Source: a virus. From it: a stretch of 29,036 nt of DNA. Location: positions 1 through 29,036 of the IMG/VR virus record IMGVR_UViG_3300032093_000628, one strand, 5' to 3'. A program made the position numbers and the translations under genes. How positions within the stretch are numbered: the first letter of the stretch is position 1; every line of letters starts with the position of its first letter. Shown one piece after another: positions 655-12,073 of the stretch. The notes under the pieces are model-generated. The model saw nothing but the letters and a program-made list of their open reading frames with translations, was not told where the DNA came from and made no database searches.

Positions 655-1383
655 TTACTGTCCTTTGAGTAGACTGTAATACTGCGGGTAGTCGGCTTTC
701 AATATGTTCCATGCTTTGCTTAACTCGTCTGTGCTACTACCAACTGTTTGACTTCCTACATGGTGAACATACGCAGTTGATATAAAGTGCTTCTTGCCAT
801 TAGCAGACATTTCATAACACTGTAAGTTATCACTAAAGTAATTGATAGGCAAGTAGTCAACCCAACTACTGCGACTCACTACTCCACATATAGGCGCAAT
901 AAAGTTAGTTTGTACTATTGAAAACTCTCGAGCATTATGAATGTTGCCAAGATTATGCACTGCGTCTTCATCATGAGTATCATAATTGCGCCTGATGTTT
1001 TGCATGCCTATTGCGTAGTCGGTGAGACACCCGACCCAACCAAGAGACTCGGCTCCTACCTCGTCGATTAACTTGTTGTAATCTTCAACCAAGTTGTCGT
1101 AAGTTGTCGGAGTAAAAACTACATCATCATTGCAAACTATAACATGCTCATGCTTCTTAAATGCTTCCTGCACTACAAAGTTGTAAGCATCTCCGTAATT
1201 AGTTGCTGTGCTTTTCAAGTCATAAAAAATCTTACCCGACATATTATGACTATTCTTAGCACCGCAGTAACCAATGTATACTTCAACTCCGTTTGGAACA
1301 TACGCACTAATGCTTGATACCAATACTCCAAGCGACTTGCGATGTACCGTGCTGATGCAAATTGCTCTTAACTCTACACTCAT
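655..1383 (-). CDS. Family-2-like glycosyltransferase (GT-A fold)
   Basis: A 242-residue protein. The N-terminus is a typical GT-A nucleotide-sugar beta strand (ELRAICISTVHRKSLG), and near the middle there is a hydrophobic strand ending in CNDD (VIVCNDDVVF), the likely DXD-type metal/UDP-sugar site. The C-terminal half keeps aromatic and acidic residues typical of acceptor regions. Acceptor and donor are unknown: modified phage DNA, a virion protein or a host surface glycan are all possible. I place the start at the ATG at 1383, preceded by AAAGGAG six bases upstream, and not at the in-frame upstream codons, which lie inside the upstream nuclease gene. It begins two bases after the stop of that nuclease and its stop codon abuts the start of the GP88-like gene, so the three are probably co-translated. 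Confidence 0.65.
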   Translation of the reverse strand: MSVELRAICISTVHRKSLGVLVSSISAYVPNGVEVYIGYCGAKNSHNMSGKIFYDLKSTATNYGDAYNFVVQEAFKKHEHVIVCNDDVVFTPTTYDNLVEDYNKLIDEVGAESLGWVGCLTDYAIGMQNIRRNYDTHDEDAVHNLGNIHNAREFSIVQTNFIAPICGVVSRSSWVDYLPINYFSDNLQCYEMSANGKKHFISTAYVHHVGSQTVGSSTDELSKAWNILKADYPQYYSLLKGQ

Positions 1384-1385
1384 GC

Positions 1386-1733
1386 TCAACTCCTTTTGAA
1401 TAATTCGAGTAACATCAAATAAGTTTGCTCTTGCTTGAGTTGTTGAGGAGTAAAACGAAGCACTCGCCAACCTTCAAGCGTAGCAAGGTTATATTTTTCC
1501 ATGTCTTTCAAGTAACCGAGACCTCGGGTGTGTCTGCCTTGTATCCATATACCACCTTCAACTTCGACCGCAATTTTTTTGTCAATAAAAGCATAGTCAA
1601 ATCTGAAGCGCCTGCCCTTCATGAATTGAAACTCCCGTGTTGATGCGGGTAGTTTGTAGGCATTGCAGTAAATTTGAAAAGCAACATCGCTTTCTTTTTG
1701 AACATCAGCACTCGTCTTCTTTTGCTTCGCCAT
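1386..1733 (-). CDS. PD-(D/E)XK-type endonuclease (DUF559/Vsr-like)
   Basis: A 115-residue protein with the architecture of small phage endonuclease-like proteins: a FRFDYAF strand with the first catalytic Asp near residue 45, then IAVEVEGGIW with the second acidic pair near 54-59, followed by a GRHTRG loop, DMEKYN and GWRVLRFTPQQ. This is the restriction-endonuclease-like fold with the E-V-E-G-G core seen in DUF559, Vsr and VRR-type proteins. It could be a Holliday-junction resolvase, a repair nicking enzyme or a genome-processing nuclease. The start at 1733 overlaps the upstream gene by 29 bases and has no strong Shine-Dalgarno, which suggests translational coupling. Its 3' end contains the Shine-Dalgarno of the next gene. 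Confidence 0.7.
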   Translation of the reverse strand: MAKQKKTSADVQKESDVAFQIYCNAYKLPASTREFQFMKGRRFRFDYAFIDKKIAVEVEGGIWIQGRHTRGLGYLKDMEKYNLATLEGWRVLRFTPQQLKQEQTYLMLLELFKRS

Positions 1734-5582: not shown

Positions 5583-5862
5583 ACCATGCCTCCTTAGTTA
5601 AGTATTGTTCTTGACCATTGTATCGAACTTGCCAATATAAATTTGCGAGCGTCTCAACATCATTGCACTTGCCACTGCAGTCATAACCAAATTTGAATGC
5701 TTCGATAATTTGCTTACGCTCTTCTATCATTAGTTCTCTTGCGAGTGCTTGCAAGTGCGGACGCAACTTGACTGCATCATACTTTGCCGTGATAAATTCT
5801 TCATAACCAAAACCGAGGTAGTGATATAAAGAATACGCTGGGCTGTTTTGTCTTACTCTCAT
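5554..5862 (-). CDS. Hypothetical protein in recombination operon
   Basis: A 102-residue protein rich in aromatic residues and charged helices (MRVRQNSPAYSLYHYLGFGY, then a basic/acidic helix ELMIEERKQIIEAFKFGY, and a Cys pair CSGKC near 62-66). No family is recognised. It starts with AGAGGAG upstream and its ATG overlaps the TGA of a 32-residue membrane peptide (ATGA). It ends inside the RecB-like nuclease gene. Tight coupling to the nuclease suggests an accessory role, but nothing in the sequence shows this directly. Confidence 0.65.
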   Translation of the reverse strand: MRVRQNSPAYSLYHYLGFGYEEFITAKYDAVKLRPHLQALARELMIEERKQIIEAFKFGYDCSGKCNDVETLANLYWQVRYNGQEQYLTKEAWYAEDKRNST

Positions 5863-9642: not shown

Positions 9643-9882
9643 TTACTTGGTATCAAATGCGCCTGCGTTATTCATTTGGAGCAAAGCCATTCTTGTTGAC
9701 TCTTCATTCAATTTGCTTGTGTATACTTCGCCTCTGTTTGCTGCAACATTCATAAAGAAACAATATAGGTCTTGGAATGTTGTGTTAAGTTCTGATGTTG
9801 TAACCAACATGTAATAAGCATTGGTTGGGTTTTCATTCATCAATTGAACTCTTGTGCTGTTGTTTGTTGTGCTCGTTGTCAT
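9643..9882 (-). CDS. First gene of the early operon, hypothetical
   Basis: A 79-residue protein: Ser/Thr/Asn-rich start (MTTSTTNNSTRVQ), then NAYYMLVTTSELNTTFQDLY and a FFMNVAANRGEVY segment. No family is recognised. The ATG at 9882 has CGGAG eight bases upstream within the fourth copy of the leader box. A longer in-frame reading from a TTG at 10059 gives a Lys-rich extension encoded by A-tracts and is most likely the translated promoter region, not protein. As the first gene after the putative tandem promoters, it should be expressed early. Confidence 0.6.
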   Translation of the reverse strand: MTTSTTNNSTRVQLMNENPTNAYYMLVTTSELNTTFQDLYCFFMNVAANRGEVYTSKLNEESTRMALLQMNNAGAFDTK

Positions 9883-9927: not shown

Positions 9928-9975
9928 AATATGGGATATTGATATTTCCAATGCAACCTTTTTTTTACTTTTTTT
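9928..9975 (-). promoter_or_regulatory. Candidate early promoter, copy B of the A-tract repeat
   Basis: The repeat at 9949-9975 carries two A-tracts on the minus strand, followed by TTGCAT (9951-9956), a 17-base spacer and CATATT (9928-9933). It aligns with copy A 108 bases upstream at 24 of 27 positions. The A-tracts would act as an UP element. Start of transcription is expected near 9921, about 40 bases before the first early gene. Confidence 0.5.
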
Positions 9976-10035: not shown

Positions 10036-10083
10036 AACATAAGGTCTCGTTTTACTCAATCCAACCTTTTTTGAACTTTTTTT
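10036..10083 (-). promoter_or_regulatory. Candidate early promoter, copy A of the A-tract repeat
   Basis: The repeat at 10057-10083 has two A-tracts on the minus strand, then TTGGAT (10059-10064), a 17-base spacer and TATGTT (10036-10041). The extended element TATGTTTG also fits the Bacteroidota consensus TAnnTTTG with a TTG about 20 bases upstream, so the sigma class is uncertain. Same layout as copy B; transcription would start near 10028. Confidence 0.5.
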
Positions 10084-10149: not shown

Positions 10150-10317
10150 TTCGCATCAATTCGGAGTGCATGATATTATATGTATGGAGTATTTCGATGT
10201 GTAATAACTTAAAGGTTGTAAGTTATTCGTGCAGTGGTTATATTCTATGACGGTTCATCATGACCGCGTCTCCCCCCGAGTCGTGCCTGTCGCATCATGT
10301 GGCAGGCATATTTTTTT
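10150..10317 (+). ncRNA. Candidate plus-strand small RNA with its own terminator
   Basis: A possible promoter (TTCGCA at 10150-10155, 18-base spacer, TATTAT at 10174-10179) would start a transcript near 10186. It would contain a hairpin from the perfect 8-bp inverted repeat AATAACTT/AAGTTATT (10203-10227) and end at a strong intrinsic terminator at 10317, giving roughly 130 nt. No open reading frame of note lies within it. The terminator is well supported; the promoter and the RNA itself are inference. It would be the only plus-strand transcript in the window. Confidence 0.4.
10284..10317 (+). terminator. Intrinsic terminator on the plus strand
   Basis: Arms TGCCTGTCGCA (10284-10294) and TGTGGCAGGCA (10298-10308) pair over 11 bp around a 3-base loop, followed by TATTTTTTT. 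Two pairs are G-U wobbles in plus-strand RNA but A-C mismatches in minus-strand RNA, and the T-tract is only on the plus-strand side, so the direction is clear. Confidence 0.8.
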
Positions 10318-10351
10318 GCCTTGCCTACTCGTCATGTGTTTAACTTTGTGA

Positions 10352-10411
10352 GCATTCGAGATAATTAAACTTATATTTTCTTTTTGAGTTGTTATGCTGC
10401 AACTCGAATGC
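10352..10411. repeat. 9-bp inverted repeat enclosing a second hairpin
   Basis: GCATTCGAG (10352-10360) matches CTCGAATGC (10403-10411). Inside, GAGTTG (10386-10391) can pair with CAACTC (10400-10405), sharing three bases with the outer repeat. The two stems could be stacked in one structure or be partly exclusive. It lies just before the plus-strand terminator at 10417-10450. Confidence 0.5.
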
Positions 10412-10416
10412 ACTCG

Positions 10417-10450
10417 GGCGGGGTGGGGACTCCGCCTATTTTTTATTTTT
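10417..10450 (+). terminator. Second intrinsic terminator on the plus strand
   Basis: GGCGGGGT (10417-10424) and ACTCCGCC (10429-10436) pair over 8 bp with a GGGG loop and are followed by a T-rich tract to 10450. One pair is a G-U wobble only in plus-strand RNA. The T-tract overlaps the end of the ribbon-helix-helix gene (stop at 10443-10445), so it would stop rightward transcription at the boundary of the tail genes. Confidence 0.75.
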
Positions 10451-10634
10451 GCTTTTCCTCTTTCTTAATGCGAAGCATGAACTGCAGTGTGGCAATCTTA
10501 CCTTTATACCAGTAGACATCATTCGCAAGTCGCATCGCTTCCCCGACTGCCTTTGTGAGTGGCAAGCCTTTCGCTCGAGCAAAATGTCTTATTGCCTCTT
10601 CATCTTTTTTGTCTCTTATTTTTATGTGCATCAT
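10443..10634 (-). CDS. Ribbon-helix-helix DNA-binding protein (Arc/MetJ/VapB-like)
   Basis: A 63-residue protein whose first 40 residues fit the ribbon-helix-helix fold: a short strand (HIKIRDK), helix one (DEEAIRHFARAKG), a turn LPLT and helix two (KAVGEAMRLAND), then a helical tail ending in Lys/Glu. The LTKAVGEAMR pattern is that of VapB/MazE-type and phage Arc-type repressors that bind DNA as dimers. No toxin gene is adjacent, so a phage repressor is more likely than an antitoxin. It lies directly before the control region with the putative early promoters and could regulate them. TAGGAG precedes the double ATG (10634 and 10631), next to a perfect inverted repeat. Confidence 0.7.
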   Translation of the reverse strand: MMHIKIRDKKDEEAIRHFARAKGLPLTKAVGEAMRLANDVYWYKGKIATLQFMLRIKKEEKQK

Positions 10635-11329: not shown

Positions 11330-12073
11330 TTATACCTGTGTTAGTATTCGTCTTGTTGAGTATTCAATGTCGCTTAGTCTTATTACTTGTAATGAAGCAA
11401 CGGTCGTGTCTGTTCCAAGTGAAACATTATTTGCTGATGATTGCAGTCGCAATTTGAAACCTGGCAAACCGTTGTTAGTTGTCTGCACGGTTGCTGGTAT
11501 ATTCAGCATAGTTGTGCCATTGACATACGGATGCTTAGGGTGATGATTGTAGTCTACCCAAGTATTGTAGTCTTCGTAGTCGGCTCCCGATAAAGTTATA
11601 TTGCTTATTAACCTAACGCCCCACTCATGCGCAGCATTAACTGCGGGAGCAAACATAAATACTCGCACTAAATACCAACCCGGCTTGCGAATATACACGA
11701 AGCGGTCTACGGGATTGTAAAAATAGAATGGCGAGTTGACTATTATTCTGTTAGCATTCCAATTTATGTCCATTCCATTTACGCCACTTTGCAAGACATG
11801 ATTGACTATACCACCTGTGCTCATGAAATTTCCTTGCATGCCTGCAATCTCAAAGCAGACATTTTGTATATCTTGCTTTAATGATGTAGCAGTTGCCGTA
11901 GAAATTGCTCGAGCAAAAGACACCGCACTGACTTTTCCTTCAATGCCATGCTGTTCAACTATGCTGATTTCATCAGGGTTTTTGACATCCAATGGTGATA
12001 GTCTGCGACTTGTGTTGAATGCTACTTGTCCCCTGCCTATACCTGCAGGTCTGACTGGTTCGTTTTGCTTCAT
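11330..12073 (-). CDS. Tail tip protein with C1q/TNF-like jelly-roll domain (putative receptor binding)
   Basis: A 247-residue protein. The N-terminal 90 residues include a possible attachment region (SFARAISTATATSLKQDI). From about residue 110 the pattern FYFYNPVDRFVYIRKPGWYLVRV, then GFKLRLQS and VASLQVIRL, resembles the C1q/TNF-like jelly-roll fold of many phage receptor-binding proteins. The similarity is by eye and distant. It starts as ATGA overlapping the upstream tail gene with GGAG at good spacing. A receptor-binding role is inferred from fold and position. Confidence 0.5.
   Translation of the reverse strand: MKQNEPVRPAGIGRGQVAFNTSRRLSPLDVKNPDEISIVEQHGIEGKVSAVSFARAISTATATSLKQDIQNVCFEIAGMQGNFMSTGGIVNHVLQSGVNGMDINWNANRIIVNSPFYFYNPVDRFVYIRKPGWYLVRVFMFAPAVNAAHEWGVRLISNITLSGADYEDYNTWVDYNHHPKHPYVNGTTMLNIPATVQTTNNGLPGFKLRLQSSANNVSLGTDTTVASLQVIRLSDIEYSTRRILTQV

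Follow-up and report, generated by a model that had tools for sequence, protein, structure and literature searches.

The window analysed here, a viral contig of 29,036 bases (IMG/VR record IMGVR_UViG_3300032093_000628; all coordinates are positions in it), almost certainly carries the gene of a genuine, conserved phage small RNA, to be referred to as RNA-C. The RNA is about 70 nt long and belongs to a family that is absent from Rfam. It comprises a 5′ hairpin whose loop is conserved, a small second hairpin that holds a run of six cytosines in its loop, and a terminator. Another candidate transcript nearby, to be referred to as RNA-G, would present a run of guanines. Reasoning by analogy, we give a probability of roughly 55% to the reading in which RNA-C is a C-rich antisense RNA that acts by base pairing, with RNA-G as its G-rich partner or sponge, in the manner of RoxS and RosA.

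The RNA-C gene and its conservation

The evident genes of the window are all leftward. The gap between the genes at 9643-9882 and 10443-10634 contains two strong terminators that are oriented for rightward transcripts only, located at 10283-10309 and 10416-10437. The first has 12 base pairs, including wobbles, and a loop of three nucleotides, and is followed by ATTTTTTT; in the leftward sense it has no T-tract. The preliminary description of this DNA had reported such a rightward-only hairpin among leftward genes, and its wobble pairs and T-tract are confirmed here, while the second terminator had been overlooked. The core of that description, a structured small RNA made rightward from the control region, now has the strong support of conservation, covariation and a conserved promoter. 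Moreover, the terminator hairpin is kept in the relatives, together with a 5′ hairpin that had gone unseen. The length of about 130 nt suggested there has to be reduced to about 70 nt, and the perfect 8-bp inverted repeat, for which both arms (AATAACTT at 10203-10210 and AAGTTATT at 10220-10227) are exact, brackets the promoter and is not within the RNA (Table 1).

Table 1. Features of the control region, in window coordinates
Feature	Position	Strand	Basis
RNA-C (small RNA, about 70 nt)	10248-10317	+	Covariance model built without the window, and covariation; exact 5′ end inferred from the promoter
RNA-C promoter: -33 GTTG (10215-10218), 20-nt spacer, -7 TATATTCT (10239-10246)	10215-10246	+	Place and spacing match relatives
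Inverted repeat (8-bp arms) flanking the -33 element	10203-10227	.	Sequence
RNA-C 5′ hairpin, CGGT-TCATCATG-ACCG, conserved 8-nt loop	10251-10266	+	Helix 1: 100% paired cells, double changes in 3/4 pairs
C-run CTCCCCCC with GAG; small hairpin, C-run in loop	10270-10280	+	C-run almost invariant; stem by eye across lineages
Intrinsic terminator of RNA-C with T-tract	10283-10317	+	Helix 2: double changes in 9/12 pairs
RNA-G candidate: hairpin GAGTTG-TTATGCTG-CAACTC, linker, terminator (10416-10437), T-tract to 10444	10386-10444	+	GGGG-type terminators adjoin RNA-C in all relatives examined
Possible RNA-G promoter (weak): TTTG (10345-10348), N23, TATATTTT (10372-10379)	10345-10379	+	Sequence only
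63-aa ribbon-helix-helix-like protein, possible regulator	10443-10634	-	PF07704, E 2e-4, 22.6 bits, below the 28.3 cut-off

The piece from 10247 to 10317 (71 nt) has a folding energy of -26.1 kcal/mol, compared to a mean of -16.0 for its shuffles (z -3.8; 0 of 200 shuffles). The loop of the 5′ hairpin has the consensus CYAYCAUA, and is conserved although its stem changes. The C-run is predicted to be mostly unpaired, with a value of 0.85 in the window and 0.83-1.0 in 13 variants. The stem of its small hairpin varies by lineage yet pairs (CUC/GAG, CUUC/GAAG, UGCC/GGCA), as judged by eye and from folds of single sequences; the covariation statistics cover the other two helices. A search of Rfam finds no family that matches at its cut-off. 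A BsrG fragment returned at a lax threshold is a chance match, with 11.9 bits where the cut-off is 55 bits. RNA-C was also rejected as a coding sequence, since the ATG at 10247 has no ribosome-binding site and is absent from relatives.

Relatives of the terminase (about 66% identity), of the Sak4-like ATPase and of one late-block protein led to a wide range of related phage contigs. At the same place and on the same strand, the relatives have a non-coding block that consists of a Bacteroidota-type promoter, the hairpin CGGY-CYAYCATA-RCCG, the run CTCCCCCC and a terminator. The order of these elements in the window is the same (GTTG-N20-TATATTCT, CGGT-TCATCATG-ACCG, CTCCCCCC, terminator). RNA-C closes the same late-gene block in 23 further distinct variants, 24 with the window. 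For the form that the region takes in the window, no close relatives were found, and this variant is represented by one record. A match of 10384-10406 in six relatives was discarded as a conserved element; it is due to chance and lies inside a coding homolog of the gene at 11330-12073.

A covariance model was built from 19 relatives, with the window excluded. Run against the window with all filters off, it gives a sole match, at 10248-10314 on the plus strand (E 1.8e-5), and it also recovers additional members. The model found nothing significant in 788 kb of sequence taken mostly from elsewhere in these phages. Of the 29 contigs that matched a pattern scanned for in the viral collection, nearly all were already-known members of the group. 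In an alignment of 37 members (24 distinct), which was fitted to the model and is biased towards it, 89% of the cells of the two helices are paired, and 12 of the 16 pairs show changes on both sides, in 43 cells altogether. On all five measures the alignment exceeds every one of 500 shuffles, and only 30-53% of cells are paired in the slid controls. In helix 1, the double changes can be recognized directly by eye (GCGGC/GCCGC, GCGGT/ACCGC, GCTTC/GAAGC, GCGTC/GATGC).

The promoter and a possible neighbouring regulator

The promoter has the form TTTG-N20-TAnnTT(G/T)(C/G) in the relatives. The -7 element TAnnTT is correctly placed in all 23 distinct upstream sequences (12% of shuffles), and 13 of the 23 have a -33 element TTTG or TTG at a distance of 18-21 nt (1.8% of shuffles). 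Judged by these motifs, the RNA-C promoter is of the Bacteroidota type, in agreement with the published consensus TTTG / TAnnTTTG (PMC7366714). The promoter proposed previously, at about 10150-10179, is not the conserved one, and the result of a sigma-70 promoter scan is likewise superseded. From the promoter type only, the hosts of these uncultured phages are probably Bacteroidota. No close cultured relatives were found (terminase 26%, capsid about 25%), and a single genome-contig scan returned only distant relatives of the ATPase.

The 8-bp repeat was not seen in the promoters of the relatives, and by our estimate it is by itself within chance expectation for AT-rich DNA. Centred on the -33 element, it could be an operator, and this operator is perhaps bound by the neighbouring ribbon-helix-helix protein. 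A homolog of this protein adjoins RNA-C in most relatives. In two of them (L112, 1761-2027; L113, 2041-2301), RNA-C is divergent from the ribbon-helix-helix gene, with the promoter directly before its start; the gene in the window is on the opposite side of RNA-C compared to these two.

There are two other observations on leftward expression. A near-copy direct repeat (89%; 9949-9975 and 10057-10083) has a leftward A-rich stretch and then GGTTG(G/C)ATTG, before possible leftward promoters; after its second copy, TATGTTTG stands at the spacing of a Bacteroidota -7 element. In addition, leftward starts such as those at 5862, 7178, 8046 and 10634 have strong GGAG(AC) ribosome-binding sites despite Bacteroidota-type promoters, with GGAGAC common to five. 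Bacteroidota are said to make little use of GGAG-type ribosome-binding sites.

The G-rich neighbour of RNA-C

The terminator of RNA-G has the sequence GGGCGGGGT-GGGG-ACTCCGCCT, followed by ATTTTTT, and the four guanines form the loop. An exposed GGG(G) in a terminator loop, or GGGG just 5′ of the stem, is found beside RNA-C in 34 of the 35 loci scanned, which are related and represent about ten lineages; in the remaining locus (L112) the exposed G-run is located farther upstream. The other terminator-like hairpins of these phages have GGG in the loop in only 1 of 72 cases. The G-run is predicted to be highly exposed in most lineages, and the value is 0.11-0.19 in L112-L114, where pairing with the T-tract is possible. 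The GGGG-loop transcript is downstream of RNA-C in the window and upstream of it in the relatives. Because of these opposite sides, RNA-G of the window is only possibly akin to that of the relatives. An AUGCUG motif is found in the 5′ part of RNA-G in L112-L114, L174 and the window (10394-10400), and is absent from the other lineages.

A sister clade, which has no match to the RNA-C model, possesses two tandem rightward transcripts with the terminator loops GGGA and UUCUUCCC. As read from these loops, the clade keeps the GGG/CCC complementarity with unrelated hairpins. In one case (L215), other sequence replaces the first transcript, and the second transcript has no C-run. By eye, a coding sequence like the glycosyltransferase-like gene of the window (655-1470) is found at the expected place of this first transcript (L215, 5471-6300). 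At that place, a leftward terminator is found in a more distant group (L176-L189), which has no such RNAs.

Possible functions and comparison with known systems

In Firmicutes, C-rich small RNAs and G-rich sponges work by pairing of this kind (PMC8216469, PMC9410917), and the C-runs of RoxS and RsaE bind Shine-Dalgarno sequences (PMC8216469). The ribosome-binding sites of the phages studied here are GGAG. The favoured reading is that the C-run regulates by antisense pairing and that RNA-G is its partner, because the anatomy is that of the C-rich RNAs and G-rich sponges and because of these GGAG sites. RNA-C would act through base pairing, with its exposed C-run binding to G-rich stretches of phage or host mRNAs, for instance their Shine-Dalgarno sequences, and blocking their translation. 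The GGGG of RNA-G would bind the same C-run, which would make RNA-G a partner or sponge, and the ratio of the two transcripts would determine the outcome. As a guess, the promoter of RNA-C may be controlled by the neighbouring ribbon-helix-helix protein. A match of only about 4-5 bases is guaranteed, and the complementarity conserved between the two RNAs is 4-6 bases long. In co-folding, with a program that leaves loop-loop contacts unmodelled, cognate pairs are no better than mixed pairs. Complementarity of RNA-C to phage start regions exceeds that of controls in the window only. More tentatively, the tandem RNAs might form a two-RNA phage switch, in which they recognize each other by their exposed CCCCCC and GGGG runs, with a complementarity kept across clades whose RNAs are otherwise unlike, and time the expression of phage or host genes during infection of Bacteroidota.

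It is considerably less probable that RNA-C and RNA-G are decoys or scaffolds for a protein (an RNA-binding protein, the ribosome, RNA polymerase or a defence protein), bound through the 8-nt loop and the C-run. The conservation of CYAYCAUA on a changing stem would be unusual for a simple antisense RNA, and no recurrent target gene or gene family for RNA-C was found among the phage start regions, both of which speak for protein binding. On the other hand, the exposed G-run of the partner, kept even with unrelated hairpins, fits RNA-RNA pairing better.

An antisense regulator of phage genes, chiefly of the adjoining ribbon-helix-helix gene, is an unlikely role. In the window, GGAGAC and CAUGAUG of this gene face GUCUCC and CAUCAUG of RNA-C (6 and 7 bases), which would cover the ribosome-binding site and the start codon, and the start regions of the window, taken together, match RNA-C more closely than controls do (z -4.2). 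In 11 related genomes, however, no such rule is seen (z -2.1 to +1.6), and no gene family stands out. Many other sites outrank that of the ribbon-helix-helix gene in the whole-window duplex scan, which is not discriminating. Complementarity to this gene is seen in the window, and antisense control of it is unsupported across the relatives. Among the functions suggested in the preliminary description, mRNA regulation by pairing is still the best guess; nothing supports a replication primer, and control as a cis-antisense RNA is not general. RNA-C ends at 10317 in the window and the nearest late gene at 10443, with no overlap; in relatives, RNA-C overlaps the neighbour gene at the 3′ end of that gene only, and with its terminator.

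It is improbable that the rightward terminators merely halt stray transcription into the late genes, with the short transcripts as by-products; they do face into the late block on its antisense side, but for this task neither the 5′ hairpin with its conserved loop nor the conservation of promoter and C-run would be required, and the more distant group has no rightward terminators close to the end of the block. Least probable of all is a replication element with transcripts that prime or control DNA synthesis, as every transcript has a terminator at its end and what is conserved is typical of a released RNA, although the site is the main non-coding control region and has G- and C-rich runs.

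The arrangement of an exposed C-run in one small RNA and a G-run in a second, stand-alone one resembles RoxS of B. subtilis and RsaE of S. aureus with RosA and RsaI (PMC8216469). Unlike RNA-G, RosA is about 229 nt long and has several G-rich regions (PMC8216469). In contrast to RNA-C and RNA-G, these RNAs are chromosomal and belong to Firmicutes, and their pairing and targets are proven, whereas those proposed here are only inferred. To our knowledge, RoxS/RsaE and RosA/RsaI are not adjacent as a tandem pair. No homology of RNA-C to RoxS, RsaE or RosA was found (no Rfam match at cut-off). By analogy, RNA-C may work like them, and it is not a member of their family. IsrR of Staphylococcus similarly has loops that present C-runs, followed by a terminator of poorly conserved sequence; unlike RNA-C, it is iron-regulated, has three C-runs and known targets, and is not phage-borne (PMC9410917).

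Among phage RNAs, OOP of lambda is also short, with its own promoter, and opposite to the neighbouring genes. However, OOP is antisense to cII (PMC12197685), whereas RNA-C of the window overlaps no gene. PreS of lambda and VpdS of VP882 are likewise phage-encoded small RNAs, and act in trans on host or phage mRNAs (PMC12197685). In contrast to RNA-C and RNA-G, they depend on Hfq and belong to Gammaproteobacteria, and no such partner RNA is described there (PMC12197685).

RNA-C would add to these a non-Rfam RNA family from uncultured phages, with a promoter, structure and boundaries that can readily be tested. Small RNAs of Bacteroidota phages are, as far as we know, hardly described, and we know of no phage that has both a C-rich small RNA and a G-rich partner for it. 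If such pairing takes place, these phages themselves bear the logic of small RNA and sponge that is known from the chromosomes of Firmicutes.
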